Assembly (NCBI RefSeq): GCF_036322805.1
Contig: NZ_AP027272.1
Coordinates: forward strand, 620,001 to 684,000
Length of the DNA stretch: 64,000 nt
Direction of reading: 5' to 3'
Source of the DNA: Planctobacterium marinum
Lineage (GTDB): Bacteria; Pseudomonadota; Gammaproteobacteria; Enterobacterales; Alteromonadaceae
Positions 2,151 to 52,316 of the stretch are shown here, piece by piece. Position 1 is the first letter of the stretch. Every line of letters starts with the position of its first letter. The notes beneath the pieces were generated by a model. It did no database searches. It saw only the letters and a program-made list of their open reading frames with translations, and was not told where the DNA came from. Both the position numbers and the translations under genes were made by a program.

Positions 2151-2693
2151 TTAATTTAAGTGAATATCAAACTTGATAGCGTCTTCACCTTGCCATTGTG
2201 CTTCTGACTTGCTGACAGTGCCTTCCGTATTGAAATGTGCCAAAGTGCCTTCGATCAAACCCACGGCTAAATCTTCAAAATGACGGGAAGATTGATAGTA
2301 CATGGACAGGTGCTTGTCGGAATGCTGTTCGTGGTAAAACTTAGGCAGCTCGGCATCAGGGTAGAGTTTTAATACTTCAACGTGAATATAACTATCAATA
2401 TTGGACAGAAAATCAAAGGCGTCTTTGGCTTCGTCGAAAAACTGTGGATAGCCCTTTACAAATTGGCCCAACAGGTGTTTGCCAAAAGTTGCCAGTAAGT
2501 CAGGTAAAGGCATGTTGCTGGTTTCGCTAAGTGCCACCACCAGGCGCACGATTTCTTGGTGATCATAAGTTCCCACCGTGGTGTAGGCACCATCGTTGGG
2601 TAAATCGGCTTTTTCGATGATTTCATCCAGTACGTCATCTGAGAAAACCTCTTCCACCATATCCATGAATTCGGTAAAAACCACACCTTTCAT
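2151..2693 (-). CDS. Stand-alone H-NOX haem nitric-oxide sensor
   Basis: A 180-residue single-domain H-NOX (HNOB) protein. It begins MKGVVFTEF, carries the proximal haem ligand His104 in SYIHVEVLKLYP, and has the porphyrin-propionate motif Y-x-S-x-R at 133-137 (YQSSR). The family binds NO at ferrous haem and passes the signal to a histidine kinase or cyclic-di-GMP enzyme, usually encoded next door. Here neither neighbour is such a protein, so its partner must be elsewhere. The NahK/HnoK-like hybrid kinase at 16400-18427 is a possible candidate. The ATG has a strong TAAGGAG at suitable spacing. It lies 90 bp downstream of the esterase gene, with a plausible promoter of its own (TATACT) in that gap. 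Confidence 0.93.
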   Translation of the reverse strand: MKGVVFTEFMDMVEEVFSDDVLDEIIEKADLPNDGAYTTVGTYDHQEIVRLVVALSETSNMPLPDLLATFGKHLLGQFVKGYPQFFDEAKDAFDFLSNIDSYIHVEVLKLYPDAELPKFYHEQHSDKHLSMYYQSSRHFEDLAVGLIEGTLAHFNTEGTVSKSEAQWQGEDAIKFDIHLN

Positions 2694-2783: not shown

Positions 2784-3524
2784 CTATGCCAAGATATGAG
2801 GTAAAAAATGCACGATTTGTTTGCGCCACCAGGGCCAGTCGTGCTCGACATCGTGTCCCCAAAAGTCAATCCAAGCATCCACTTGCTTGGCCGCTAAAAT
2901 CCCTTTTAGCTCAGCCGTATCCTCAATCATTTCATCTTCCCATGCCCCTTGGCCCACACATATCACAATTTTGCTCTGTTGGTATCGGGAGATATACCAA
3001 GGATCGTTCATATTAGGCAGGTAATCTAAGGGCGAGTTGAAGTAGATTTGCTCTGTGCCGTAGTTGCGGTTCAACACCTTTTTGATGTTATACACACCGC
3101 TAAAGGCTAACACTGCATTAAAAATACCCGGCTCTTTAAAGAAAAAATTGGCGGCGTGATAAGCACCCATGCTGCAACCGTGAGTGGCTATACCCACCTT
3201 ACCACCACAAATTTGCCAGATAAAAGGCACTACCTCTTCGGTAACATAACGGTGGAAAGCTTCATGACGACCACCGATATGCTCATCACTGGCGCCTTTG
3301 TTCAGCCAGGTGTCTTTGTCGATACTGTCGATACAGATAAATTTTACTTTACCTTCGTTGATGAATCCTGAGGCGGCTTCGATCATTTTAAAGTCCTCAA
3401 ATTCATGGAAGCGACCGCCAGAACTGGGAAATACCAAAATGGGCTTGCCATAGTGACCATAAACTTTCAGCTCCATTTCACGCCCGAGGCGCTCGCTATA
3501 CCATTTGTGATACTCGATATGCAT
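2784..3524 (-). CDS. Esterase-like alpha/beta hydrolase of the ATP-grasp cluster
   Basis: A 246-residue cytoplasmic alpha/beta hydrolase of the esterase-D/enterochelin-esterase type. The nucleophile elbow is HGCSMGA with Ser118, and the likely catalytic His is His228 in VEHDW. VYGHYGKPILVFPSSGGRFHEFED near the start is shared almost word for word with the gene at 13998-14741, so the two are paralogues. It is the last gene of a leftward run (ATP-grasp, CBM20 esterase, ATP-grasp, this gene), 13 bp after the preceding ATP-grasp gene, so co-transcription is very likely. The substrate is unknown; an acyl ester or amide made by the ligases is a reasonable guess. Confidence 0.85.
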   Translation of the reverse strand: MHIEYHKWYSERLGREMELKVYGHYGKPILVFPSSGGRFHEFEDFKMIEAASGFINEGKVKFICIDSIDKDTWLNKGASDEHIGGRHEAFHRYVTEEVVPFIWQICGGKVGIATHGCSMGAYHAANFFFKEPGIFNAVLAFSGVYNIKKVLNRNYGTEQIYFNSPLDYLPNMNDPWYISRYQQSKIVICVGQGAWEDEMIEDTAELKGILAAKQVDAWIDFWGHDVEHDWPWWRKQIVHFLPHILA

Positions 3525-3537
3525 AACAGCCTCCGGT

Positions 3538-4701
3538 TTAATGCTTGTCTAACATGGCGTGACAAATGGACAGCATTTCCTCTTTGTCATGGCAGCAGAA
3601 AATATAACAATAATGGCCCATGGCGCGGGAAAATACTTGCGGTACTTCTCCTTTGTAGCGGATCAGGTGCCCGTATTGTTTCAGGATTTCGTCGTGGTGC
3701 ATTTTGTAATTGAAATGCAGCTTGCGACCTACATAAGCGCAATAGTGGTTAATGCTAAGATGCTGGGTTGGCTGATTGTGGCACAGGGCATTAGCCCACT
3801 CGTCGTAGAGATTGGCATCCATGGCAAAATTGAACATGTCCATAGAGCGGCCACCCGGTGGACGCATATTGACCTCGAGACATATGAGTTTGTTGTCTTT
3901 ATAACGCCGGAAAAATTCGAAATGAAAAAACTGCATACGCAGGTCGTATTCTTTTAGTAGTTTTTTACCTTCAGTGATCAGGTCTTCTGGAATTTCCCTG
4001 TCGTAGTAATAAAATAGATCCAGGTCTTTATTGACGATATCCATGACGCCTGACGAGTAGGTGCAAGACATCAAAAACAGTGGATTGCCATCGTAGTCCA
4101 CCATGCCGTCAAAGGTGTAAATATCGCCTTCAATAAATTCTTCAAAAAAGAAGGTGCCATCTCCTTTTACCCGCAAAAACTCTTCCAGATCGCCGTGATT
4201 GGTTAATCGGTAGGTACCCGATGCACCAACGCCTTTATCGGGCTTGGCCACTAGCGGATAACCGAATTTCTCTACGAAGGCATGGGCCTGTTCAGGATGG
4301 TCTACCACGGCGCCTTCCACCACGTTACAGCCTGCCTGGCGAAAGCGGCGCTTCATGTCGGACTTATTTTTTACGTCGGGCAAAATACTTTGATTGATGC
4401 CGGGGATATTAAAGTCCGTACGAAGGTGGGCTTCCAGTTCCAGCCAATGCTCGTTATGGGCGTTGATTTGATGGATACGTCCGTGTTTGTGAATCAATGC
4501 GGCGACGGCGCGGTATACTTCGTCGTACTTTTCCAGCGAAGTTACCTGGTAATAATCTGACAGATTCGCCACCAATTGGGGCGAGAGGCTTTCGAAGGGC
4601 GCGTCAGATAAGCCTATGACATTGACACCGCGCTTTTTCAGCCCTTCGCAAAACAAGTAATAGTTAGGCGGAAATTGCGGTGACAGAAAGATAAAATTCA
4701 T
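3538..4701 (-). CDS. ATP-grasp carboxylate-amine ligase-like protein 1
   Basis: A 387-residue protein with an N-terminal pre-ATP-grasp fold (MNFIFLSPQFPPNYY) and an ATP-grasp domain. Lys153 in VAKPDKGVGASGT is the ATP-binding lysine with its glycine-rich loop, EEFIEGD near 187-193 is the adenine/ribose strand, and EVNMRPPGG at 276-284 supplies the Mg-binding Glu and Asn. The fold joins a carboxylate to an amine or thiol through an acyl phosphate. The closest general type seems to be carboxylase/PurK-like amidoligases, but the substrate cannot be told from sequence. It sits between two esterase genes in the same leftward operon. It shares only the fold, not close sequence, with the second ATP-grasp protein at 5912. 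Confidence 0.85.
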   Translation of the reverse strand: MNFIFLSPQFPPNYYLFCEGLKKRGVNVIGLSDAPFESLSPQLVANLSDYYQVTSLEKYDEVYRAVAALIHKHGRIHQINAHNEHWLELEAHLRTDFNIPGINQSILPDVKNKSDMKRRFRQAGCNVVEGAVVDHPEQAHAFVEKFGYPLVAKPDKGVGASGTYRLTNHGDLEEFLRVKGDGTFFFEEFIEGDIYTFDGMVDYDGNPLFLMSCTYSSGVMDIVNKDLDLFYYYDREIPEDLITEGKKLLKEYDLRMQFFHFEFFRRYKDNKLICLEVNMRPPGGRSMDMFNFAMDANLYDEWANALCHNQPTQHLSINHYCAYVGRKLHFNYKMHHDEILKQYGHLIRYKGEVPQVFSRAMGHYCYIFCCHDKEEMLSICHAMLDKH

Positions 4702-4764
4702 AACGACCCCTCAGATTAGTACTAATCACGGTGGTAACTTTTCATCGCCACGCGCCTTAGTGAA

Positions 4765-5862
4765 TTATTTGCCGAACATAAACTCCAGTGGTTTCCAGAC
4801 GCGAGCTGCCCAGGCGGCTTCGTTGTGCCAGGCGCCCTCGTCTTTAAACCACATTAAATTCTTACCTTGTTGATAACCTCGATCTTCCAACACCCTTAAC
4901 ATGTGCACACAGCCAGGCATTAGAGAACGCTCCAGTTCTTTAGTGCCATTGTCCATATAAATACGAGCATTAAGCGGCTGTTTTGGATTGGCTTCCACCA
5001 TTTGCCAGGCTTTTACATTCACCATTTTTTTACCCCAAAACATGGGCGATAAACAGGCCGCTTGACCAAAGATTTCCGGATGATACCAGGCAGCCAGAAA
5101 CGAAATTAAGCCCCCCATGGAAGAGCCCATCACTGCGGTGTGCTTTTTACTTTTCAGGGTTCGGTAATTTGCGTCTATCAGCGGTTTTACCTGCTGCTTG
5201 ATAAAGCGCAAATAATTCCGTCCAGATTCAGTATCAGCGTACTCTTCAAGGCGATCTTCGGTATTGTAAAGCCCCACAATTATGGGAGGGGTGATGCGCC
5301 CCTCGGCGGCCAACCGTTCAATGGTTTCATCTATGCGCCAGTCACTGTGTAAAAAGGCGGTGTTAGGGTCAACCAGGTTCTGACCATCGTGCATATACAA
5401 CACTGGAAATTTTTTACGAGGACTTGCAAGATACGCGGTGGGTAACCAGACGATCACTTCCCGGTCGCGAATACCACTGCCACTCATGTGTCCTAAATAG
5501 TCCACTTGCCCCTGGATATGGTCTGGCATAGCGGGTGGATTTTGATGCCAGTGCGCTACCGATAACTGCACATCCATATCCTGGTTTGCCACCACCAGGA
5601 TATTTTCCTTGGCGGGAAAGCGTTCGACAATGGCTTCTTTTTCCCAGGTGCCATCAGTGATTTTAAATTCCAACCGGGTGCCTGTAGGGACCTCCAGTGA
5701 GCTTTTCCAGACGCCATTATCATTGTGCAAGGGCAAGCCTTCCGGATCCCAATTGCCAATATTTTTGTGATTACCAGTAATCCATAATGCCGGGCAAGGT
5801 TGTCCGGCATTAACTGCAAAATTAATGGTGCTAGTTGTCATTTTGGGTCGCTTTTGTGTCAA
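4765..5862 (-). CDS. CBM20-esterase fusion (alpha/beta hydrolase)
   Basis: A 365-residue two-domain protein without a signal peptide. Residues 10-100 look like a CBM20 starch/glycogen-binding module (ALWITGNHKNIGNWDP, then VWKSSLEVP and EFKITDGTWEKE). Residues 125-365 are an esterase-D-type hydrolase with Ser248 in MGSSMGG and probable His346 in GAWHNEAAW. The frame opens with TTG, preceded by GGTGAG at 7-base spacing. The alternative ATG at codon 8 (5841) has no visible ribosome-binding site, so I keep the TTG with moderate confidence. It may be held near glycogen, or the CBM20 fold may bind another ligand. Its place between the two ATP-grasp genes ties it to the cluster pathway. Confidence 0.8.
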   Translation of the reverse strand: MTQKRPKMTTSTINFAVNAGQPCPALWITGNHKNIGNWDPEGLPLHNDNGVWKSSLEVPTGTRLEFKITDGTWEKEAIVERFPAKENILVVANQDMDVQLSVAHWHQNPPAMPDHIQGQVDYLGHMSGSGIRDREVIVWLPTAYLASPRKKFPVLYMHDGQNLVDPNTAFLHSDWRIDETIERLAAEGRITPPIIVGLYNTEDRLEEYADTESGRNYLRFIKQQVKPLIDANYRTLKSKKHTAVMGSSMGGLISFLAAWYHPEIFGQAACLSPMFWGKKMVNVKAWQMVEANPKQPLNARIYMDNGTKELERSLMPGCVHMLRVLEDRGYQQGKNLMWFKDEGAWHNEAAWAARVWKPLEFMFGK

Positions 5863-5911
5863 ATTTCTCTCACCAGCATATTACGGATAATCAACATTGA
5901 TCCAAGTGCTT

Positions 5912-7141
5912 TTAGCGATTATTGTCCTCAACCCATTTGGCGATTAAGCCGCGATAATGAGCAATGAACTGTTCGTGCTCGTGAGCCGGGAAGAGCTCCT
6001 GTACGGTAGAGACGATGATCTGGTCAAATTCCTCTGAGCGAGTGAAATGCCACATCACTTCATCAAGATTACTCAACGCGGTATGACGAAATTCCCAATA
6101 GCGTTCAGTATCCAGGTGCTGATCGGCGAGTTTGGCATATTCTCTTAGCTTCTCTTTGAAGCTTCTGTCTGAGTCAGCAATGTCATAATAGGGCTTGATA
6201 TCCATGGTGACATGCATTGGACGCTCGGTGGCCAAACAAAACTGCGACCAGGCGTACAAAGAGGAAATGGCCCATGGGAAGTAGTAATGCAAGCTGGTGA
6301 GTGCGATATCCGGGCAGGCGTTGGCAAAATCCATTGGCCAGAGGCGCCCATCTTTATAGATGGCTTCACAGGAATTGAAATCCCAGCGGAAGAAGGCGTT
6401 GATCACTTTGGTGGTAAGCAAGGCTTCTTCATTGGTTTCATCGTCTACGACTTTATCGGTGAGCACATAGCGCAAGTGTTGTGGTTGGGCCGGATCGTAT
6501 TTGAAGCTGCGCACATCGGGGCCAATTCCGAGGCAGCGCACAAACACGTCAAAGTTATCCAGTCCTTTTTGGATGTGCATAAGCTCGGTGTCGGATTCGT
6601 GGTAAGCGGCCATCAATTCGGCTTCGTTATCCACTTTAGTCACGCCTCGCCATCCGCCACCATCAAAGGGTTTCATAAATATCGGATAACCGATGTTGCG
6701 GGCGATTTCCGGCAAATCAAATAAATCGTGGTAGCGGGCAGCCGTAGTGCTGTATTTTTTGTTGTCGGGACCCACTTTGGGGGGTAAAAACCAGGTTTCT
6801 GGCACATTAAAGCCAAGGCGCATCATGGCGCAATAGGCACTGTGTTTTTCCATGCTCTGAAAGGTAAACGGATTATTGAGTAAATAGAGATCGTTCATTA
6901 ATGCCGCTTTTTTTAGCCATTCGCGTGGCGTAAAGTGCCAGTAGGCGAGGCGGTCAATCACCAGATCATAGCTGGTACCGTGTTGCAAGCTAAAAGGGTG
7001 TATGCGCACGCGCTCAACATCCACTTGAGATTGCTTGTTTTGCCAGACAATCTTGCCACCCATCCAACGTGCCAATCCCTCAAAGGCTCTTGGCCAATCT
7101 TCCTCATCTCCTAACAATAGTCCCAGTCTTTTGTGGTTCAT
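5912..7141 (-). CDS. ATP-grasp ligase-like protein 2
   Basis: A 409-residue protein and first gene of the leftward operon. The ATP-grasp signature is Lys157 in IFMKPFDGGGWRGV, and the metal-binding end is WPMDFANACPD, with Asp271 and Asn274. The N-terminal 90 residues have no recognised motif but precede the ATP-grasp core as a normal pre-domain. The C-terminal 120 residues are helical and rich in aromatics (MWHFTRSEEFD). It is probably a cytoplasmic amidoligase acting in sequence with the ATP-grasp protein at 3538 and the GCS2 ligase at 7531. It faces the GCS2 gene across a 390-bp shared upstream region, which suggests coordinated control. Confidence 0.8.
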   Translation of the reverse strand: MNHKRLGLLLGDEEDWPRAFEGLARWMGGKIVWQNKQSQVDVERVRIHPFSLQHGTSYDLVIDRLAYWHFTPREWLKKAALMNDLYLLNNPFTFQSMEKHSAYCAMMRLGFNVPETWFLPPKVGPDNKKYSTTAARYHDLFDLPEIARNIGYPIFMKPFDGGGWRGVTKVDNEAELMAAYHESDTELMHIQKGLDNFDVFVRCLGIGPDVRSFKYDPAQPQHLRYVLTDKVVDDETNEEALLTTKVINAFFRWDFNSCEAIYKDGRLWPMDFANACPDIALTSLHYYFPWAISSLYAWSQFCLATERPMHVTMDIKPYYDIADSDRSFKEKLREYAKLADQHLDTERYWEFRHTALSNLDEVMWHFTRSEEFDQIIVSTVQELFPAHEHEQFIAHYRGLIAKWVEDNNR

Positions 7142-7530
7142 TTAGCTCTCACTACTCGTTTGGCAATTTAAATCGTATGAATTAAACCTCTATGTGTAGA
7201 CCTAATTTTCATCGAGTGCAACAGGCTACAGTTAAATGATGACAGAAGGTAAGTTAAATGCTCATCAAGTAACCATATTGTCATCTTTCAGGTTTACCCT
7301 TACGTAAACTGAAACCCGCTCTAGCCTTTGTTCTACAAGGGATGTGAGCTTAAAAAAACTTTAACAAAGCGCTTTTTTGTGCGTATAGTCAAAGTACCCC
7401 TGTTAGTGTGCATTGAATGTGGTTTTTGCATCGCTCATGAAAATGAAGATTGCGAGCCAATTAAATGTGAACAAGGTCGAGTCGCACTCGCACTCGCACC
7501 CAAAGAGATCATAAAAACAAGGAGGCTGGG
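7142..7530. other. Divergent control region of the ligase cluster (no gene)
   Basis: This 389-bp stretch is the largest gene-free region in the window. It separates the leftward ATP-grasp operon from the rightward GCS2-CBS gene. It holds one good sigma-70 promoter for the rightward gene (7361-7389), a short direct repeat of TCGCAC at about 7481-7498, and the AAGGAGG ribosome-binding site just before 7531. A rightward open frame from 7328 overlaps the start of the GCS2 gene in another frame and looks spurious. Confidence 0.6.
7361..7389 (+). promoter_or_regulatory. Sigma-70 promoter for the GCS2-CBS gene
   Basis: TTAACA (7361-7366) and TATAGT (7384-7389) are separated by exactly 17 bp and each match the consensus at five of six positions. 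Transcription would begin near 7396, leaving a leader of about 135 bases before the ATG at 7531. Confidence 0.6.
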
Positions 7531-9438
7531 ATGGGCCAGCATGAAGTCAGTATTAATCGTTCCGCAGACGCCATTCGTTTGTTCATGCGTCATTTACTTC
7601 GAGATATTCAGGCACTGGAGCAAATGCTGGAAAACGACATGTTCGAAAAGGACAAAAGTCGTATCGGCGCAGAGCAAGAGTTTTTCCTGGTGGACTCCCA
7701 AATGCGCCCCGCTTCAGTGGGCCATGATTTACTTACTGCTCTTGACTCAGATTATTTTACTCCGGAATTAGCTTTATTTAACCTGGAGGCCAATCTCGAC
7801 CCTCAGGAGTTTGATGCCTTGAGTTTGCGCAGAATCGAAGCGCAACTCAAAGAGCTAACGCAACAGATCCGTGATAGAGCCAACGAGATGGGGGCTTATG
7901 TTGCTCAAACGGGTATTTTGCCCACCATTAGTAAATCTGATCTCAATCTCAACAATATTACTCCCAAACCGCGTTACCGCATGATCAACGAAGTGCTATG
8001 TGGCATGCGTGGTGAAGACAGTCGCCTTAACATTGAAGGCTTAGACGAGCTGATGTTTACCCATGACAACGTGCTGATTGAGGCCTGTAATACCAGCTTT
8101 CAATTGCATTTCCAGGTAACACCGGAAGATTTTGCCACTTATTACAACATTGCTCAGGCAGTGAGTGGACCTTTGCTGGCACTGGCAGCCAATAGTCCAA
8201 TCCTGATGGGCAAGCGCCTGTGGCATGAAACTCGAATTGCTTTGTTTCAACAAGCCATTGATACCCGCTCAGCTAACAAAGCCAATCGCGAACAGGAACC
8301 ACGTGTCTGGTTCGGCAATCATTGGGTTAAAGAATCGGTTTTAGAGCTCTTTCAGGAAGACATTGCGCGCTTTAGAGTGCTGTTTGCTCAGGACATTGAC
8401 TGCGACCCGTTTGATGCTTTAGAACGAGGAGAGGTACCTAAGTTACAAGCGCTGTGTTTGCATAACGGTACCGTGTATCGCTGGAATCGCGCTTGTTATG
8501 GCATCAGTAAAGGCAAACCCCATTTGCGTATCGAAAATCGCATTTTACCAGCAGGGCCAACACCGCTGGATACCATGGCGAACAGTGCATTTTATCTGGG
8601 GTTGTTATGCGGTTATGCTAAGGAAGTGGGTGACATTTCCAAACATATGGACTTTTCCGACGCCAAACTCAACTTCAACAATGCCGCAAAGCACTCCATG
8701 GAGACTGACTTTCACTGGTTTAAAGGCAAAAGATACGGCTTCGAAGATTTAATCTTGCAGGAGCTGTTACCGCTTGCTAAAGAGGGGCTTAAAGATCGCG
8801 GTATCGACTCAGGTGACATTGACCGCTATCTGGGCGTGATTGAAGAGCGCACCAAACACAACCAAAATGGTGCCATCTGGATGCTGCGCAATTACAACAC
8901 CATTTTGGATAAGGGACTGAAAAAGGAAAACGCTTGTCGGGTGTTAACTTCTTCGATGTTAAATCGTCAGGCCTCAGGTGAGCCGGTACACACCTGGCAA
9001 GATATCACACCGCCAGAAATTAGCGCCATCAAACAGCACAATCAGCTGGTGGAGCAGGTGATGTCTACTGATATCTTCACAGTACACCCCGACGACCTAA
9101 TCGATCTCGCGGCTAAGATAATGCACTGGAATCATATTCGCCATGTGGCGGTGGAAGACAACGGTAAACTCATTGGCGTGGTATCTTATCGCAGTATTTT
9201 GCAAATTTACGGCAAGTACGCTGCCCGCGGTGATGTGCACTTAGTGCCGGTGCAAGAAGTGATGAGTAAAACTACGGTTACCATTACGCCGACGCATACT
9301 ATCGAAGAAGCGATGGCGCTCATGCGCACACACAAAGTAGGCTGTTTGCCTGTGCTGTCTAAAGATGGCTTGGTAGGAATGCTGACAGAAGCCGAATTGA
9401 TGGATGAATTTTCTAAGTGGCTGGAAAAAGGCAATTAG
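7531..9438 (+). CDS. GCS2-family glutamate-cysteine ligase-like protein with CBS pair
   Basis: A 635-residue fusion. Residues about 20-480 are a GCS2-type carboxylate-amine ligase; RIGAEQEFFLVD near 45-56 carries the metal-binding glutamates, and ENRILPAGPTP is another family block. Residues about 510-560 (VMSTDIFTVHPDD) and 575-630 (VMSKTTVTITPTHT) are two CBS motifs forming one Bateman module. GCS2 enzymes make gamma-glutamyl-type amide bonds using ATP; CBS pairs usually sense adenosine nucleotides, so activity may follow energy state. Start: AAGGAGG five bases before ATG. It diverges from two ATP-grasp ligases, which suggests successive ligations. It is much longer than ordinary GCS2 proteins because of the CBS extension. 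The substrate is unknown, and glutathione synthesis is not implied. Confidence 0.88.
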   Translation: MGQHEVSINRSADAIRLFMRHLLRDIQALEQMLENDMFEKDKSRIGAEQEFFLVDSQMRPASVGHDLLTALDSDYFTPELALFNLEANLDPQEFDALSLRRIEAQLKELTQQIRDRANEMGAYVAQTGILPTISKSDLNLNNITPKPRYRMINEVLCGMRGEDSRLNIEGLDELMFTHDNVLIEACNTSFQLHFQVTPEDFATYYNIAQAVSGPLLALAANSPILMGKRLWHETRIALFQQAIDTRSANKANREQEPRVWFGNHWVKESVLELFQEDIARFRVLFAQDIDCDPFDALERGEVPKLQALCLHNGTVYRWNRACYGISKGKPHLRIENRILPAGPTPLDTMANSAFYLGLLCGYAKEVGDISKHMDFSDAKLNFNNAAKHSMETDFHWFKGKRYGFEDLILQELLPLAKEGLKDRGIDSGDIDRYLGVIEERTKHNQNGAIWMLRNYNTILDKGLKKENACRVLTSSMLNRQASGEPVHTWQDITPPEISAIKQHNQLVEQVMSTDIFTVHPDDLIDLAAKIMHWNHIRHVAVEDNGKLIGVVSYRSILQIYGKYAARGDVHLVPVQEVMSKTTVTITPTHTIEEAMALMRTHKVGCLPVLSKDGLVGMLTEAELMDEFSKWLEKGN

Positions 9439-9818: not shown

Positions 9819-10703
9819 TTGGAACGCATTTTTGCTGAACTAGATAGTGGCCAACCTGGTCCCCTGGTCATTGTTATAGCAGCCCTGCATGGCAATGAGC
9901 ATGTGGGGTTTCGGGCAATGGATAGACTGGCGGTAACATTAAAGCACGGAGATTTTATTGGCAAAATCGTTGGCGTGACCGGCAACCTCATTGCTGCTAA
10001 TCGCAATTCGCGTTTTATCCAGCGGGACTTAAATCGTTTCTTCCTGTCGGACTATCTCAACGAAAGCCATTCTGATGTGCCTGAATGGCATGAGGCAAGG
10101 CATTTAATCGATCATATCAATGTCTTGATTGAAGGATACCCGAAGGACCAACCTGTGCATTTATTAGATATGCATTCCATGTCGGGCCATGGCACGCCTT
10201 TTACCTGTTTTCCCCACACGCCCGCCAACGAGCGTATTGCTCACTTATTGCCGTTACCAGCCATTGCTGACCTGGTGGAGATACTACCGGGCACACTCAC
10301 CGCCTATTACGCCGATAAAGTTACTACCACTATGGTAGTGGAATGTGGCCAGCACGATGCTGAAATTACTCAGGTTGTGGGGGAAAATGCCCTTGCTTGC
10401 TTTTTACGAGTCACAGGTTGTCTGGTGAATGAGCAGTGTTACCAGGATGCTGAGCAATTCCTGCGTTTCCATGTAGAAGGTACCGATCAAATTTTTACCC
10501 GAGTTAAATATCGCTATCACATTGAACATCAAGGTTATTTCGACATGCAGCCGGGCTTTCGCAATCTGCAGGCGATAGACAACGGTCAATTGCTCGCTTT
10601 GGACAAAGGCGATGAAGTATTATCGCCATTTGCCGGACGGGTGGTTTTACCCTGTTATCAAAAACAGGGTGATGATGGTTTTTTTATTGCAGTTGATGAG
10701 TAA
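9819..10703 (+). CDS. Succinylglutamate desuccinylase/aspartoacylase family protein
   Basis: A 294-residue zinc-dependent amidohydrolase of the AstE/AspA (M14-like) superfamily. Zinc ligands His24 and Glu27 lie in ALHGNEHVG, the third ligand His is probably in LLDMHSMSGHGTPF, and VECGQHD is a later family block. Members remove an acyl group from an N-acyl amino acid. It is not placed in an arginine succinyltransferase operon, so the AstE reaction itself is unlikely. The start is TTG at 9819, with TGGAG six bases before it; no in-frame ATG fits. Its neighbourhood, next to the ligase cluster, suggests action on an amide product of that pathway, but this is inference. Confidence 0.85.
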   Translation: MERIFAELDSGQPGPLVIVIAALHGNEHVGFRAMDRLAVTLKHGDFIGKIVGVTGNLIAANRNSRFIQRDLNRFFLSDYLNESHSDVPEWHEARHLIDHINVLIEGYPKDQPVHLLDMHSMSGHGTPFTCFPHTPANERIAHLLPLPAIADLVEILPGTLTAYYADKVTTTMVVECGQHDAEITQVVGENALACFLRVTGCLVNEQCYQDAEQFLRFHVEGTDQIFTRVKYRYHIEHQGYFDMQPGFRNLQAIDNGQLLALDKGDEVLSPFAGRVVLPCYQKQGDDGFFIAVDE

Positions 10704-45025: not shown

Positions 45026-46651
45026 TTATGGATTGTAGTAGGTGGCGGCACCCGGCCCTACTGGCATCCCCAGCAAGAATACCCAAATATAAAACAGGGC
45101 GGTCCAGCCGACGATATAAACTAAGGAGTAGGGCAGCATGGTGGCGATTAACGTCCCCATCCCCAAGTCTTTTTTGTAGCGGGCTGCCACGGCTAATATT
45201 AAACCAAAATAGCTCATCATAGGCGTTATGAGGTTGGTAGTGGAATCACCAATTCGATAAGCCGCCTGGATAACTTCTGGTGCGTAGCCTACCAGCATCA
45301 GCATGGGGACAAAAATCGGTGCTGTCACCGCCCATTGTGCTGAAGCACTGCCCAAAGACAGATTGACCAAACCACACATCAGGATAAACAGGATAAAAAT
45401 AGACGGGCCATCCAATCCGGCTGCCTGTAAAAAGGCAGCGCCTTTTACTGCTAGCACGGTACCAAGGTTGGTCCATTTAAAGAAGGCCACAAACTGTGCA
45501 GCAAAAAATACCAAGGTGATATATAAGCCCAGCGAGCTCATGCTCTTGGCCATGGCGTTGATTACATCTTTGTCATTTTTCATGGTGCCGGCAACACGGC
45601 CATAGACAAAGCCAGGAACAGCAAAAGTGATAAAGATAAAGGCAACAATGCCTTTTAAAAATGGTGAGCCCGCGACTGCGCCAGTTTCAGGATGACGCAA
45701 AATGCCATTTTCCGGAACGATAGTGAGTGCTAGCAATACGCAAAGACCCAAGAACGCCAATCCTGCCATTTTTAAGGCTTTCTTTTCTTGTGCGCTTGGC
45801 TTTTCAATTTTCGGCTGCTCTAGCTCAACAGCGGCTTCACTGGGGTCATACTTACCCAACCGCGGCTCAACGATTTTTTCAGTGACAAAGGCGCCCATGA
45901 ATGCCACTGCGAAGGTTGAGATGAACATGAAGTACCAGTTGACTTCGGGTCCTACAGTATACTCGGGATCTATCATGTGGGCTGCCGCCTCGGTTATCCC
46001 CGATAGCAGTGGATCAACCGTACCTAATAACAGGTTGGCGCTGTATCCCCCGGATACGCCTGCAAAGGCGGCTGCCAATCCAGCAATGGGGTGACGCCCA
46101 AGGGAATGGAATATCATTGCCGCTAGCGGTATCAGTACCACGTAACCCAATTCAGAAGCGGTGTTGGAAATTATCCCTGCAAAAACCACCACGACGGTTA
46201 CCATTCTGGGGGAGGCATTGACCACCATGGAACGCATGGCAGTTTGTAACAAGCCACTGTGCTCTGCTACCGATACACCCAGCAGTGCCACCAATACGGT
46301 GCCTAATGGTGCAAATCCGGTAAAGTTAGTGACCAGTCCGGTGACGATGCGTTGCAGCCCTTCGGCATTCATTAGTGAAATAACTTCGATGACGCCATCG
46401 GCTTCACGGCCTTTGGCTCCCTCTGGACGGGGATCCATAACGCTGACATCGAAGTAGCCCAATATACCGCTCAACAACACGATAAACAGGGCGAACATGG
46501 CGAACAAGGTAACAGGGTGGGGGAGCAGGTTCCCCAGCCACTCAACTGTGGCTAAAAATCGGGAAAACAAGCCCGATTGTGACTCAGCGGCGGCGCCAGA
46601 CGGCTTCTGATTATTATTTTCCGCTTGAGTGGTGTCGTTAGATGTACTCAA
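45026..46651 (-). CDS. AbgT-family transporter
   Basis: A 541-residue inner-membrane protein of the AbgT family, with family blocks LPHPVTLFAMFALFIVLLS, ISNTASELGYVVLIPLAAMIFHSLGRHP and GLVNLSLGSASAQWAV and about 11-13 hydrophobic segments. Members import p-aminobenzoyl-glutamate or export sulfonamide-type drugs. The start is TTG at 46651 with GAGG eight bases before it; an ATG nearby is out of frame. It is 132 bp downstream of cphA'. Because no aminobenzoyl-glutamate hydrolase is near, a role in moving a dipeptide or amino acid of the cyanophycin pathway is worth considering. Confidence 0.9.
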   Translation of the reverse strand: MSTSNDTTQAENNNQKPSGAAAESQSGLFSRFLATVEWLGNLLPHPVTLFAMFALFIVLLSGILGYFDVSVMDPRPEGAKGREADGVIEVISLMNAEGLQRIVTGLVTNFTGFAPLGTVLVALLGVSVAEHSGLLQTAMRSMVVNASPRMVTVVVVFAGIISNTASELGYVVLIPLAAMIFHSLGRHPIAGLAAAFAGVSGGYSANLLLGTVDPLLSGITEAAAHMIDPEYTVGPEVNWYFMFISTFAVAFMGAFVTEKIVEPRLGKYDPSEAAVELEQPKIEKPSAQEKKALKMAGLAFLGLCVLLALTIVPENGILRHPETGAVAGSPFLKGIVAFIFITFAVPGFVYGRVAGTMKNDKDVINAMAKSMSSLGLYITLVFFAAQFVAFFKWTNLGTVLAVKGAAFLQAAGLDGPSIFILFILMCGLVNLSLGSASAQWAVTAPIFVPMLMLVGYAPEVIQAAYRIGDSTTNLITPMMSYFGLILAVAARYKKDLGMGTLIATMLPYSLVYIVGWTALFYIWVFLLGMPVGPGAATYYNP

Positions 46652-46741
46652 AACTCATCCTCGTAGCTGGTCACGCCAATGGGCGTGATCGTTACTCTTT
46701 TAATTTTAGGCAACGAGAGTAAGCATTTTTACTGGCTGAGT

Positions 46742-46775
46742 CCAGTTTCCATAGTGTTTCCACCATGGAAACTGG
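46742..46775. repeat. 11-bp inverted repeat between cphA' and the AbgT gene
   Basis: CCAGTTTCCAT (46742-46752) and ATGGAAACTGG (46765-46775) are exact complements around 12 bases, nine bp past the cphA' stop. There is no T-run on the minus strand, so a full terminator is doubtful; it may be a weak one or an operator for the AbgT gene. Confidence 0.45.
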
Positions 46776-46783
46776 CGATTTGT

Positions 46784-48478
46784 TTACACTTTAGGTTGTT
46801 GTTCCAGCAATTGTTGTACAGCTTCTCTATCACAGAGTGTAAAGAGCAGTACTACGGTTCCGGGCTTAGCCAATTCCAGTGCCATTTGAGCACCAGCCAA
46901 TGGCGACGCTGAAAACAGAATTTTATCTTCCTCAATACCCGTTTGCATCAGAAAGTGTTTTGATAGCCCGGGCACTTCGCCGGGCTCTCTACCACGCAAG
47001 TATTTACCAACTTCCGAGGTAATGTAAATTTCTGCATCTAATCCCGCAACGGCTTCAGTCAGATGCTGTATCTCGGCATCAGTACGGTCACCGGCATGGC
47101 CAAACATTACAATGCGTTGGGTGGCAGGGATTTTACTGGCCATAGCCACTACGGCTTTCATGCTGTGCTCATTATGAGCAAAATCAACGATATATTTTGC
47201 CTCATTGATATCATACAGGTTACCGCGACCGGGATTATCTTGGGCATTACTGGCAAATTGCTGTAAACCCGCGATGATATGCTGTCGCTCAAAACCCAAA
47301 GCAAAACACAAACCGATAACGCCGAGCGCATTTTGGATATTGTGGTGAGCGTGTCCGCCAAATGTCATGGGGACACTGTCGATGGCACACAATCTGTCTA
47401 AGGTTTTACCGTTAAAATACACGAGATCGCCGCGATGGCTGAATACCGCAGGTTCACCATTAGTTAAGTTTTCCTGCACCAGATAATTATTTTCTGACTC
47501 GCTAAACCAGCAAATTGTGCCTTTGTAATGTTGAGACTGTGCTACTGATAATTCGTTATCGGCGTTGAGTACTAATGTGCCTGTATTGTCTAGCCCTTTC
47601 GCCACAACAAATTTGGCTTCGGATAATTCCTCTACGGTATCGATACCGTATTGCCCTAAATGATCGGCGGCCACATTGGTGACAAGCGCAGCATCGACGC
47701 GATTTACCGGTAAGCCACGACGCAAAATTCCGCCACGAGCCACTTCTAAAAAGGCGATCTCCGTGCGGGAATCTCGCACCAGCATGCGCGCACCACCGGG
47801 GCCAGAATAATCCCCGGTATCAATAATATGTTCGCCCACTTTTATAAAGTCAGTAGAAGTGACGCCGGCACTGAGCCCGGCACATTTTGCGATTTGAGCG
47901 GCAAGTCGTACGCTGGTGGACTTACCATTGGTGCCAGTGATAAAAGCCAGTGGCACATCCTGATATTTTGACCAGCAGATGGCGTCACTATCGGGGAGTT
48001 CTTTTACTGGCCAGGTATCTACGGTAGCTCCCATACCCAAGGACAGATAGTCATCATCTGTGATGCATGTGACCCCTTTTTCATGGGCACATTGAATTAT
48101 CTGCAACAGTTTGGGATTCACTTCACGCTGTAATTCCTCTTTGAGCTTGGCAATGATTGCGCCTTTGTCAGGGTGCTCTTCTTTGCGCAGCTCGGCTACC
48201 ACTATCTCCCATGCGTGTTGGGCCAGTTCACAGGCGGTATAGAGGGCATCCATGGGGGCACTAATGGCCATGCTGATGCCGTGGGTATGAATACGGTAGG
48301 TGCTTTGCGCCGCTGTCCAGCCCAATTCATCACACAGCGATTTGGCTTGATTTTGCCAGGTTTGCGCCACCTGATGTTTATCAACTTCATCCACAAACAC
48401 GTCAATAATTGCGCCGGGAAAATTCCACAGTAAATTGGGCCCCGTTAAACGGCGCGATTCGTCCAGTTCCAGTTTCAT
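46784..48478 (-). CDS. cphA': Mur-ligase-type cyanophycin synthetase homologue (CphA')
   Basis: A 564-residue protein. Residues about 1-165 have no recognisable domain, and residues about 170-560 are a Mur-ligase core with the P-loop TGTNGKST at 178-185, VARGGILRRGL, TNVAADHLGQYG and DFAHNEHSM. The core resembles the C-terminal half of CphA (EVARGG here, ETARGG in CphA), but the whole ATP-grasp domain is missing. CphA catalyses two steps, aspartate addition by ATP-grasp and arginine addition by the Mur-type domain, so this protein could at most carry out the latter kind of reaction. It follows cphA after 31 bp. Confidence 0.88.
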   Translation of the reverse strand: MKLELDESRRLTGPNLLWNFPGAIIDVFVDEVDKHQVAQTWQNQAKSLCDELGWTAAQSTYRIHTHGISMAISAPMDALYTACELAQHAWEIVVAELRKEEHPDKGAIIAKLKEELQREVNPKLLQIIQCAHEKGVTCITDDDYLSLGMGATVDTWPVKELPDSDAICWSKYQDVPLAFITGTNGKSTSVRLAAQIAKCAGLSAGVTSTDFIKVGEHIIDTGDYSGPGGARMLVRDSRTEIAFLEVARGGILRRGLPVNRVDAALVTNVAADHLGQYGIDTVEELSEAKFVVAKGLDNTGTLVLNADNELSVAQSQHYKGTICWFSESENNYLVQENLTNGEPAVFSHRGDLVYFNGKTLDRLCAIDSVPMTFGGHAHHNIQNALGVIGLCFALGFERQHIIAGLQQFASNAQDNPGRGNLYDINEAKYIVDFAHNEHSMKAVVAMASKIPATQRIVMFGHAGDRTDAEIQHLTEAVAGLDAEIYITSEVGKYLRGREPGEVPGLSKHFLMQTGIEEDKILFSASPLAGAQMALELAKPGTVVLLFTLCDREAVQQLLEQQPKV

Positions 48479-48509
48479 AGTCTATTCGTCCGGTTCAGTA
48501 AACGAGAGG

Positions 48510-51329
48510 CTAGTCAGCCTCTTCGTCATGCTCCATAACAATACGCACACCGCGCTCATCCGACACCATTTTTTGTCCCGCGGTGAGTTCGTATTTGTGC
48601 TCTTTGGGCTCAAATAACTTTTCCGGGAAGTCTTGGGAAGGTGTACTACTTTGAGAAGTCTCGGTTTTGTTAACGTCATTAAAGTGCACAATCTGCTTCC
48701 AGCAGCGGGAGATGTTGTCACCCAGCACAATCAATAAGTCGCCTTCCTTGCTCATCTGTAAACCGGTTTCAATGGCAGTTTGTTCATCCGGGATAATCTG
48801 AATGGCCTGCTCCGGAATACCCTCGGCTTTGAGCTGTGTGGCTAATAGTGTGGGGATTTCATCAGGACCGCGACCACGTCGGTCGTCGTCGGCCTTACAG
48901 ATGAATTCATCAAAGCCTTGAGCGGCAATTTTCGCAGCTTCGATGACATCTTCATCCCGTCTGTCACCGGGCATCGCCATAACAATGCGGCGTTTGCCCT
49001 TAATTTCCAGACGCATGGCCAGGTCGGTTATGGTTTGAATGGCCGCCGGGTTGTGAGCATAATCCAGTACCACTTTGAATGGATGTTCATCAAATACATT
49101 GAGGCGCCCCGGTGCCTGGAAAAAAGAGGTATTGAAGGTTCTTAGTCCTTGGCGAATATCGTCTAAAGACGTATCAAAGGCGTAGGCCATACCCGCCGCA
49201 AACATAGCGTTTTGCACATTGTGCATGGCTTTACCTTCGATGGTTGCGGGGATCAGGTGGGTCCAAAGTAGCGGAATGTGCGCACCCTTGTCATATATGG
49301 TGATCATATCGCCGTTGATGCCTTTTTCCAGCACCACCGCCATACCACCAGAGCGAATATGCTCTCTCACCAGACCGTGGCCTGAATCTGTGGTGATGTA
49401 ACAGAAACGTTTTGCCTGACAGTAGTCTGCCATTTGCAATACCAGCGGGTCATCGGCATTCAGTACCGCACAATCTTTGGCAACTTCCACTACAACCCGT
49501 TTAATCTGGGCTAAATCTTCGAGGGTGTTGACGCCGCGCTGTCCCAAGTGATCAGCACTAATGTTCAGACAAGCCCCCACATCACACCAGTTATAACCCA
49601 GGCCGCGTTTTACGATACCGCCACGAGCAGTTTCCATGATGGCAAAATCTACATTGGGATCGCGCAATACAATTTGTGCCGATGTGGGACCGGTCATATC
49701 CCCCTTAACGGTTAAATGGCCATCAATATAGACCCCGTCGGTGGAGGTCATGCCGGTGGTAAAGTTGGCTGCTTTCATGATGCTGGCCAGCATTCTGGAG
49801 GTGGTGGTTTTACCATTGGTACCCGTAATTGCTGCGATGGGAATTTTTGCCTGACTGCCCGCCGGGAACAGCATATCCATCACTTTACCAGCCACATCAC
49901 GCGATTGTCCCTCACTGGGAGCAACATGCATTCTGAAGCCGGGAGCGGCATTACACTCGCATATACCACCACCAATTTCTTTATAGGACTTACTGATGTC
50001 ATCAGTGAGAAAGTCCACACCACCCACATCTAAACCGATAGCTTTGATAGCCCGTACCGCCATATCTCGGTTATCTGGGTGCACTATGTCCGTAACGTCA
50101 ATTGCCGTACCCCCAGTGGACAGATTGGCGGTCGAGCGCAAATAAAATACTCTGCCCTCTTCCAATACGGATTCTGGCGATAATTCGGCCTCTTCAAGCA
50201 AGCGTTGGGCCTGATTATCCAACTCCAGGCGAGTGAGCACCTTTTCATGACCGATACCACGACGAGGATCTTCATTAACGATATCCACTAATTCGCTGAT
50301 GGTATGTTTGCCATCACCCACCACATGACCGGGGACTCTTTTTGCCACCGCTACCAGTTCGTTGTTCACCACCAGCATGCGGTGATCAAAACCAGTAAGG
50401 TAACTTTCTACTAAAACCGCGCGGCTGGTGCCAAACTTTTGCGCTTCGGCAAATGCTGTTTGCACTTGCTCATCAGACGTTAAATTAATACTGACGCCAC
50501 GGCCATGATTGGCATTAAGCGGCTTTACCACAACCGGGTAACCGATGCGTCTGGCAGCTCTCACTGCCTGGCGCTCACTGTAAATCATATGTTGAATCGG
50601 AACAGGTAAACCAAGATCACTCAATAAATTGTGGGTGTCTTCTTTATCGCAAGATATCTCTACTGCAATGTGACGGGTTTCGCTGGTAACGGTAGCCTGA
50701 ATACGCTGTTGATATTTACCGTGTCCAAATTGAACCAGGCTATATTTGTTCAGACGTAACCAGGGGATATCACGCTCTTCTGCGGCTTTTACCAGAGAGC
50801 CAGTGCTGGGGCCAAACTCTTTACGCTGGGCAGCCCGCACAAAAGACTGTAATTCGTCGCTGAAGTCAAAATCATCTTCGTAGTCAAATGGCACTTGCTG
50901 TTTTACTGGCTCAGGTAACAAGTGCATGAGTAGCTTCATGGCTAGCTCACCTGCTGCCAGGCCGACATCTCGTTGCTTGTATTCGTACACCACGTTGTAG
51001 CAACCGTGTTCGCCAGTACCGCGGGTTTTTCCGAAGGTAACCTTAGAGCCAGCCAGGTCTTGCAATTCGAGAGCAACATGCTCCCAGATATGTCCCATCC
51101 AGGTACCTTCGTCTTCCCGGAGGCGGCGCACAAGTCCACCTTCAACACCATAAGAGCAACCGTGACTGTGCAAACTAGGCACTGCTTCTAACAAACCATT
51201 GATAAACTTTTCGCCTAATTTTGCCGATGGCCAGTTTTCTAATTCACCCAAATTTATCTGATGGCGAATAACGGGAAAGTTGGCATAAACATTAGGGCCA
51301 ACATAGACATTAGAAGTGGTAATTTTCAT
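48510..51329 (-). CDS. cphA: Cyanophycin synthetase
   Basis: A 939-residue CphA. Three domains: N-terminal about 1-160, ATP-grasp about 215-480 (GYPVVVKPLNANHGRGVSIN), and Mur-ligase about 490-880 with P-loop ITGTNGKTTTSR near 502-508, ETARGGIVKRGL, NISADHLGQRG and LDYAHNPAAI. It builds cyanophycin by adding Asp to the backbone and Arg to its side chain, both ATP-dependent. The ATG at 51329 gives MKITTSNVYVGPN, matching the CphA N-terminus; the frame is open 32 codons further. The tail after 880 is acidic and lacks motifs. It has a terminator upstream and so should have its own promoter. Confidence 0.96.
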   Translation of the reverse strand: MKITTSNVYVGPNVYANFPVIRHQINLGELENWPSAKLGEKFINGLLEAVPSLHSHGCSYGVEGGLVRRLREDEGTWMGHIWEHVALELQDLAGSKVTFGKTRGTGEHGCYNVVYEYKQRDVGLAAGELAMKLLMHLLPEPVKQQVPFDYEDDFDFSDELQSFVRAAQRKEFGPSTGSLVKAAEERDIPWLRLNKYSLVQFGHGKYQQRIQATVTSETRHIAVEISCDKEDTHNLLSDLGLPVPIQHMIYSERQAVRAARRIGYPVVVKPLNANHGRGVSINLTSDEQVQTAFAEAQKFGTSRAVLVESYLTGFDHRMLVVNNELVAVAKRVPGHVVGDGKHTISELVDIVNEDPRRGIGHEKVLTRLELDNQAQRLLEEAELSPESVLEEGRVFYLRSTANLSTGGTAIDVTDIVHPDNRDMAVRAIKAIGLDVGGVDFLTDDISKSYKEIGGGICECNAAPGFRMHVAPSEGQSRDVAGKVMDMLFPAGSQAKIPIAAITGTNGKTTTSRMLASIMKAANFTTGMTSTDGVYIDGHLTVKGDMTGPTSAQIVLRDPNVDFAIMETARGGIVKRGLGYNWCDVGACLNISADHLGQRGVNTLEDLAQIKRVVVEVAKDCAVLNADDPLVLQMADYCQAKRFCYITTDSGHGLVREHIRSGGMAVVLEKGINGDMITIYDKGAHIPLLWTHLIPATIEGKAMHNVQNAMFAAGMAYAFDTSLDDIRQGLRTFNTSFFQAPGRLNVFDEHPFKVVLDYAHNPAAIQTITDLAMRLEIKGKRRIVMAMPGDRRDEDVIEAAKIAAQGFDEFICKADDDRRGRGPDEIPTLLATQLKAEGIPEQAIQIIPDEQTAIETGLQMSKEGDLLIVLGDNISRCWKQIVHFNDVNKTETSQSSTPSQDFPEKLFEPKEHKYELTAGQKMVSDERGVRIVMEHDEEAD

Positions 51330-51436
51330 TGGGTCGTACGTCCTTATTTTCCGCATGTTGGAAAAGTGCGAGGGTGTGCAAAGATGATGATTTATTTGGC
51401 TACAGAAAAAAGTCTGTAACAGCACTAGGTATAAAC

Positions 51437-51463
51437 AAAAAAAGTGGCGAATGCCACTTTTTT
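51437..51463. terminator. Bidirectional terminator between cphB and cphA
   Basis: AAAAAAGTGGC and GCCACTTTTTT form a near-perfect stem around GAAT. It stands 33 bp past the cphB stop and upstream of cphA. The A/T runs on both sides suit termination in either direction. It makes iadA-cphB and cphA-cphA' separate units. Confidence 0.85.
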
Positions 51464-51495
51464 CTGATGATTATCGCGCTCTGCTCAGTAAGCAA

Positions 51496-52314
51496 TCAAT
51501 CGATATGGGCGATGCGATTACTGATATCGTATCGAGCGCCAGAAGCCAGAATGTGTACTTTGAGATTGAGCAAGGTCAGGGCTTCACCACGACGCGCTTC
51601 AGCCATGGAGGAATACTCAATATCCGATGGGTCAACTACTGTGATGGCGCCACTGCCTACCACGGTAAAAATGTTGTCTTCATCAATGAATGCCGCAGTA
51701 TTTTCGTCAAGGCCTACACCCACTAAAAAAGGGTTGTAAGAAACGGCACTGAGTAACCTTGCGAGGCGATTGCGCTCGTTAAAGTGCTGATCTACTACGA
51801 CAGTATTGATGAGCCCCATACCGGGTGCCAGGTTTACACCATCTTCGGTGGGCACAATACCCACGTTTCCGCCGGCGATCATGTGCTGCGAAATAATGGC
51901 CGCACCAGCGGATGTTCCACCTACATGAGCGCCACGAGCATTAGCCTGGCGAATCGCTTTCGCTACTGGCGTGCCACCTAAAATGGTAGATAATCGCAGT
52001 TGATTACCGCCGGTGATAAAGATAGCGGTGGCATTTTCAATAATATCCAGATGAGTTTCATCTTGGGCATCTGAGCGCTCTGCAATTGGTAAAGAATCTG
52101 CTTGCCCAGCACCCAGATCGCGGAATAAGGTCTCATAACGGGAGCCAGTATCTTCCAGTCTTGATGCGGTGGGGATAACACAAATTTTTGCTTCACGGCC
52201 GCCAGCCAGTTCTACAAATTTACTGAGAATTTCCGGGTTATCGATTTTTTCTTCTGCGCCGCCTATCGGAATTACATAGCCGCGCTTTTGTCCGTCTACT
52301 GCTGGTGATGGCAT
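51496..52314 (-). CDS. cphB: Cyanophycinase
   Basis: A 272-residue S51-family peptidase with the nucleophile Ser135 in GGTSAGAAI and blocks IPIGGAEEK, CVIPTASR and FITGGNQLRL. It cuts cyanophycin from the C-terminal end to beta-Asp-Arg dipeptides. The ATG at 52314 has GAGG seven bases upstream and is preferred over the TTG two codons earlier that overlaps the iadA stop. There is no signal peptide, so the enzyme should act inside the cell on the stored polymer. It is coupled to iadA, which splits its product. Confidence 0.95.
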   Translation of the reverse strand: MPSPAVDGQKRGYVIPIGGAEEKIDNPEILSKFVELAGGREAKICVIPTASRLEDTGSRYETLFRDLGAGQADSLPIAERSDAQDETHLDIIENATAIFITGGNQLRLSTILGGTPVAKAIRQANARGAHVGGTSAGAAIISQHMIAGGNVGIVPTEDGVNLAPGMGLINTVVVDQHFNERNRLARLLSAVSYNPFLVGVGLDENTAAFIDEDNIFTVVGSGAITVVDPSDIEYSSMAEARRGEALTLLNLKVHILASGARYDISNRIAHID

Positions 52315-52316
52315 GT

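Follow-up and report, generated by a model that had tools for sequence, protein, structure and literature searches.

We examined a divergent gene cluster in a 64,000-nucleotide stretch of the Planctobacterium marinum genome (contig NZ_AP027272.1, positions 620,001 to 684,000), hereafter the window, which is part of a 4.87-Mb genome in a single contig. The cluster encodes two ATP-grasp ligases (GraspA and GraspB), a GCS2-type ligase with CBS domains (GCS2-CBS) and two esterases (EstA and EstB). The original prediction, made from the letters alone, had placed these five genes here, and their open reading frames (ORFs), strands and tight leftward spacing were verified at those positions. All five ORFs are intact. 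EstA, GraspA, EstB and GraspB run leftward with intergenic gaps of 13, 63 and 49 bp, GCS2-CBS runs rightward, and the divergent gap between the two arms is 389 bp. Since the proteins are conserved across phyla, chance ORFs are excluded. We infer that two further genes outside the coordinates considered originally, encoding an AstE-type hydrolase (from 9819) and a third esterase, EstC (from 13998), belong to the picture as well. In window positions, the features are:

2784..3524, minus strand: EstA, alpha/beta-hydrolase of family PF00756, from Pfam, family alignment and tree
3538..4701, minus strand: GraspA, ATP-grasp ligase of the RizA/BacD L-amino-acid-ligase type, from Pfam, Protein Data Bank (PDB) profile search, alignment, model and tree
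4765..5862, minus strand: EstB, CBM20-like N-terminal domain plus Fes/CE1-type esterase domain, from Pfam, PDB profile search and alignments
5912..7141, minus strand: GraspB, ATP-grasp ligase of an unnamed family, from alignment, model and RimK match
7142..7530, no strand: divergent control region, from pattern scan and three-species alignment
7531..9438, plus strand: GCS2-CBS, GCS2-type carboxylate-amine ligase with a C-terminal CBS pair, from Pfam and alignment
9819..10703, plus strand: AstE/AspA-type zinc hydrolase downstream of GCS2-CBS, PF24827 at 54.6 bits
13998..14849, minus strand: EstC, EstA paralogue, from identities and tree

The family memberships originally read from motifs were correct, as Pfam agreed with them, and two refinements emerged: EstB carries a CBM20-like N-terminal domain, and GraspB barely registers in Pfam. 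None of the five proteins reached the cut-off of any NCBIfam model. GraspA matched PF13535 (ATP-grasp_4) at 31.5 bits (Pfam cut-off 27) and, in the PDB profile search, 4wd3 at E=6e-41. Its structural model was built from 21 relatives with a mean predicted local distance difference test score (pLDDT) of 90. It has a complete RizA/BacD-type ATP-grasp fold and aligns with RizA at a Z of 31.1 over 358 residues. Full-length fold and detectable sequence similarity are thus common to GraspA and the ligases RizA (4wd3), BL00235 (3vot) and BacD (3vmm). GraspA differs from RizA in that the two are 19% identical over the structural alignment and in that the GraspA clade examined is paired with an EstA-type esterase. 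In the alignment K117, K153 and E276 are invariant, the last within the motif E276-V-N278. By analogy with L-amino-acid ligases GraspA most likely joins amino acids, fold likeness itself being taken as no indicator of substrate. Its neighbour EstA showed PF00756 at 40 bits (Pfam cut-off 22), with S118, E196 and H228 (Ser-Glu-His) invariant in the family alignment.

The Pfam match of GraspB was marginal (PF02786, 20.1 bits against a cut-off of 19.8). An alignment of 40 members at 50-90% identity nonetheless conserves its lysines and acidic metal ligands, and a model from 40 relatives (mean pLDDT 88) divides the protein into a RimK-like core at residues 2-310 (RimK Z 21.2, 2.9 A, 264 residues) and a C-terminal helical domain of about 100 residues (310-409). 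The ATP-grasp geometry by which the earlier call was to be judged was therefore found in both ligases, in GraspA on RizA and in GraspB on RimK. Compared with the RimK, LysX and ArgX ligases, the GraspB core is alike in fold (Z 19-21) but only about 15% identical, the helical domain is extra, and the metal motif read by eye is D271-x-x-N274 instead of E-x-N. No RimK-family model of NCBIfam was reached at E<=0.01, the nearest being LysX at 16.8 bits against a cut-off of 275.6, so GraspB was not filed as RimK.

EstB showed PF00756 at 118 bits and an N-terminal CBM_20 domain at 31.8 bits (cut-off 23.3), the latter missing from the original prediction. Its best PDB profile matches were 7b5v (E=5e-25) and 2b20 (E=5e-24). 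S248 and H346 are invariant in its family alignment; EstA and EstB thus both have a PF00756 domain above cut-off with a nucleophile-elbow serine and a catalytic histidine. Alignment with relatives makes the ATG at 5841, and not the TTG at 5862, the probable start of EstB. The two-domain layout and the catalytic domain are alike in EstB and in Fes (enterochelin esterase) and CE1 esterases with an N-terminal CBM48-type domain. Unlike these, EstB has no siderophore genes seen alongside, its N-terminal domain is CBM20-like and it has no evident signal peptide. All five proteins look cytoplasmic, a call that means no evident signal peptide as judged by eye; the set contains no carrier protein, nonribosomal peptide synthetase or exporter.

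The remaining ligase, GCS2-CBS, scored 27.4 bits for GCS2 (Pfam cut-off 21) and 93.8 bits for two CBS domains, which in other proteins sense ligands. E48-x-E50, E86, Q191, H193, R333 and E335 are invariant among 16 members; the domain scores above its cut-off and its metal-binding residues are conserved. The GCS2 domain and the conserved E-x-E, Q, H and E are alike in the YbdK/EgtA-type ligases, but GCS2-CBS adds the CBS pair and falls far under the NCBIfam cut-offs for YbdK and EgtA (17-27 bits, against 176-395 for glutamate-cysteine ligase and YbdK models). A GCS2 ligase and an ATP-grasp ligase form the enzyme pair of glutathione synthesis, and S-formylglutathione hydrolases occur among the distant matches of EstB. 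A glutathione-like thiol pathway could therefore be envisaged in which GCS2-CBS makes a gamma-glutamyl compound for an ATP-grasp ligase to extend, with the esterases in the role of S-formylglutathione hydrolase. We consider this highly improbable, because GCS2-CBS lies so far below the glutamate-cysteine ligase cut-offs, because the best folds for the two ATP-grasp ligases are RimK and RizA, and because the partner conserved with GraspB is not GCS2 (see below). The AstE-type gene stays beside GCS2-CBS in Planctobacterium-type loci (L003 and L004) and may be counted as a member of the locus. A GCS2 protein of SAR324 (L008, 1631-3979) has four CBS stretches rather than two.

A scan with GraspB gave 318 relatives; the 80 loci retained for comparing neighbourhoods reach down to about 50% identity. 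They span Actinomycetota, Chloroflexota, SAR324, Planctomycetota, Deinococcota and unclassified bins, and profiles of the five families were scored within 8 kb of GraspB. EstA, EstB or both were present at 68 of the 80 loci, both together at 55, and at 52 EstA immediately preceded GraspB on the same strand. GCS2 was near GraspB at 17 loci, GraspA at 11 and an S51 peptidase at 8, counts to be read with the fact that many of the 80 loci end at contig ends. Clustering of the flanking ORFs returned recurrent neighbours that were lineage-specific only, namely leucine genes in Frankiales, and thioredoxin-TPR and pgm/TreS genes in Micrococcales. Gene fusions between the locus families were looked for and none was found. 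These gene-content data indicate that GraspB is the core of a module that crosses phyla. In Chloroflexota loci L010, L011, L013 and L016, EstB-EstA is followed by tandem GraspB paralogues 55-61% identical to the GraspB of the window. In several Geodermatophilaceae GraspB has an M20 peptidase gene as its neighbour; in others an M20-like gene adjoins GraspA.

A second arrangement consists of three GraspA genes and an S51 peptidase gene with their own EstB and EstA. This triple set shares the GraspB locus in Geodermatophilaceae, Dormibacterota and Planctomycetota and otherwise lies elsewhere in the genome; its GraspA clade has Gly at the position of N278 in the window protein.

The original prediction read the cluster as one linear pathway, with three ligases forming three successive amide bonds and the esterases releasing or trimming the product. 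Clustering, tight spacing and divergent layout agree with it, and both order and layout are kept in Planctobacterium-type genomes: P. marinum K7, which has the closest locus (GraspB 90% identical), and a second Alteromonadaceae metagenome-assembled genome (MAG; GraspB 85%). Geodermatophilaceae even hold GraspB, GCS2, EstA, three GraspA, the S51 peptidase and EstB at a single locus. However, GCS2 and GraspA are not seen near most GraspB genes, actinomycete GCS2 mostly occurs without GraspB, and GraspA-EstA and GraspB-EstB-EstA are independent units with separate histories. The five families are kept together as one set only in Planctobacterium-type Alteromonadaceae. As a conserved unit, the three-ligase assembly line is thus unsupported, GCS2 and GraspA being near few GraspB loci and the trees being separate. 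We regard a single linear pathway as unlikely. Three sequential amide bonds are possible in this host; as the conserved unit, a cytosolic ligase-hydrolase system is supported.

The link between ligase and esterase was examined further in one sample of 346 Actinomycetota genomes, with GraspB in 22, EstA in 26 and GCS2 in 72. An EstA-family esterase was present in 20 of the 22 genomes with GraspB and in 6 of the 324 without it (Fisher p=3.6e-25). GraspB and GCS2 overlapped in 13 genomes (p=5e-5), and 59 of the 72 GCS2 genomes had no GraspB. Kinship among the genomes inflates these p-values, and it is the contrast between the partners that is informative. In 16 of the 20 genomes positive for both, GraspB and EstA lie on one strand and at most 100 bp apart. 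The six genomes with EstA and without GraspB are all of one class, Coriobacteriia by gene content, and in each the best EstA copy adjoins a GraspA ligase. Among 119 genomes of that class EstA was present in 9, and in 8 of these GraspA lay no more than 1.5 kb from the best EstA copy. The coriobacterial EstA copies (L180, L184, L202-L205) lie in long open frames of about 425-545 aa, which suggests a C-terminal extension absent from the EstA of the window. GraspA and EstA also occur in the order of the window in Peptoclostridium acidaminophilum (46-bp gap, 43.6% and 50.2% identity), the one genome that stands for Bacillota, and in Pararhizobium (3-bp gap) and Sinorhizobium. The linkage of ligases with esterases was thus borne out, EstA-family esterases both co-occurring with and adjoining GraspB or GraspA in several phyla.

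The trees were built quickly, carry support values from one method and include some long branches. In its tree GraspA of the window fell, at support 100, into a group with sequences from Peptoclostridium, rhizobia, Coriobacteriia and Massilia and outside the triple-GraspA clades that come from actinomycetes and planctomycetes. The esterase tree placed EstA of the window with the esterases of the Peptoclostridium, rhizobial and coriobacterial GraspA pairs (support 95), and EstC with the SAR324 esterase found beside EstB-GraspB (support 99). EstC is 36-37% identical to EstA and 56% identical to that SAR324 esterase (L007). EstA and EstC of the window each fall with the relatives of their own ligase, that is, the esterases follow the ligases. 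Since the ligase and esterase clades agree and EstC groups with GraspB-linked esterases, each ligase appears to have its own cognate esterase. EstA is the probable cytosolic partner of GraspA, and EstC, 7 kb away, probably that of the GraspB module.

The unit GraspB-EstB-EstA-type esterase exists separately in Actinomycetota, Chloroflexota, SAR324 and Planctomycetota, and GCS2 belongs to a wider family that mostly stands alone. By gene content and trees, the locus is a composite of units that exist separately elsewhere. GraspB was found in only 3 of 148 Alteromonadaceae genomes, all of one genus (a fourth match was weak, 39 residues), and in one of 299 Pseudomonadota genomes, that of the window, the other 298 being without it. 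In its tree the window protein is nested among Chloroflexota, SAR324 and Planctomycetota sequences. Given this rarity the GraspB module probably reached the genome by transfer; inheritance within Alteromonadaceae is countered by the 3 of 148 genomes in one genus. Plasmids, phages and viral contigs were searched for GraspB and gave no match. A role in anti-phage defence was considered and set aside, as PADLOC returned no match.

We propose, at a probability of about one half, that the locus is a composite of cytosolic ATP-dependent ligase-hydrolase units acting on small conjugated metabolites. The proposal draws on the genes and their folds, on the conservation of catalytic residues, on adjacency and co-occurrence, and on the match between ligase and esterase clades; that the enzymes are active, act in the cytosol, share a substrate within each pair and operate jointly in this host would follow by extrapolation. 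One unit would be GraspB with EstB, probably served by EstC from 7 kb off, a second GraspA with EstA, and a third, more loosely linked, GCS2-CBS with the AstE-type zinc hydrolase. In such a unit the ATP-grasp ligase would activate a carboxylate as an acyl phosphate and then attach it to a small acceptor at an amine or a hydroxyl. The cognate serine hydrolase would cleave an ester, which could be one that protects or carries the substrate or else the very bond that is turned over. This points to a widespread, uncharacterised making and trimming of a small conjugated molecule inside the cell.

Several points weigh against this proposal. Twelve of the 80 GraspB loci have neither esterase nearby, and some but not all of these are on short contigs. 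The actinomycete co-occurrence is partly phylogenetic, and the loci behind the EstA profile had been selected through GraspB, which favours GraspB-linked members. No such ligase was recognised beside the EstA relative of Thiodictyon, in the annotated neighbourhood, or alongside second EstA copies in Coriobacteriia. Members of PF00756 can also be thioesterases or acyltransferases. A more general formulation can be offered only tentatively and with less assurance: that cytosolic ligase-esterase pairs, comprising two distant ATP-grasp subfamilies and a co-evolving EstA-family hydrolase in at least six phyla, constitute an undescribed class that makes and cleaves an undescribed acyl conjugate.

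The N-terminal domain of EstB raises the possibility of a glucan or sugar acceptor, with EstB binding an alpha-glucan through its CBM20 or Fes-type domain and removing an acyl group installed by a ligase. The CBM20 domain of the window protein scores above its cut-off, and the tryptophans of its GNW and TW motifs, which we take to be the functional residues of CBM20, are kept in three species. In L018 glgC lies 203 bp beyond the GraspB match, in L014, L053 and L026 it is within 9 kb, and pgm and TreS-type genes are found near GraspB in Dermacoccaceae and Intrasporangiaceae. At most loci, however, glucan genes are absent from the vicinity, the neighbour counts are small and derive from genomes related to one another, and EstB of L006, L008 and L017 lacks the N-terminal domain. 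This explanation is therefore quite improbable, less so than a thiol pathway.

The window also carries a cyanophycin operon:

45026-53492, minus strand: cyanophycin operon with genes for isoaspartyl dipeptidase, cyanophycinase, cyanophycin synthetase, a second CphA-like Mur-ligase-type protein and an AbgT-family transporter

The cyanophycin genes proper occupy 46784-53492. Cyanophycinase scored 269.7 bits (cut-off 126.6) and, in a genome search, cyanophycin synthetase 1148 bits. The ligases and hydrolases might accordingly handle cyanophycin dipeptides. AstE-family proteins include cyanophycin dipeptide hydrolases (PMC10206079), and in a SAR324 locus (L157, G153:C210, 6932-14016) GraspA is followed directly by the genes for cyanophycinase, cyanophycin synthetase and a CphA2-like protein. 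That arrangement is not seen in the window, where the two loci are some 37 kb apart, and we think a cyanophycin-related function very unlikely here. Cyanophycin as a general partner was rejected, as the synthetase occurs in only 6 of 43 GraspB genomes.

Current libraries miss both members of the proposed ligase-esterase units, as GraspB lacks a model for its family and EstA is covered solely by a generic 'putative esterase' entry. Iyer et al. 2009 (Mol Biosyst 5:1636) reportedly surveyed amidoligase gene neighbourhoods in which ATP-grasp and GCS2 ligases cluster with hydrolases. No description of the present gene combination was found in full-text literature searches, the coverage of which did not extend to that survey. 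If each ATP-grasp ligase indeed has a dedicated esterase, the pair would represent a step of small-molecule conjugation that recurs. With its two genes, the GraspA-EstA unit is of a size that allows a direct test in a laboratory host, and such a test could assign function to many genes that lack annotation in actinomycetes, chloroflexi, Coriobacteriia, clostridia and rhizobia.

In the divergent control region (7142..7530) the ribosome-binding site of GCS2 is kept in the alignment of three species, as is a promoter-like TTAACA-17-TATAGT on the plus strand (7361-7389), which is a consensus match only. Sigma-70-like sites are rarer than in shuffles (8 against 23.8), so that only the three-species conservation of this one site is useful. 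A palindrome-like sequence, GTTTACCCTTACGTAAAC, at 7292-7309 is mostly conserved in P. marinum K7, though not in L004, and is a possible operator. Just downstream of EstA lies a gene for a stand-alone HNOB (haem-NO-binding) protein (2151-2693, minus strand, 156 bits), adjoined by a gene for a WYL/HTH-type regulator at 1372-2073; the HNOB gene is kept in P. marinum K7 and in L004.

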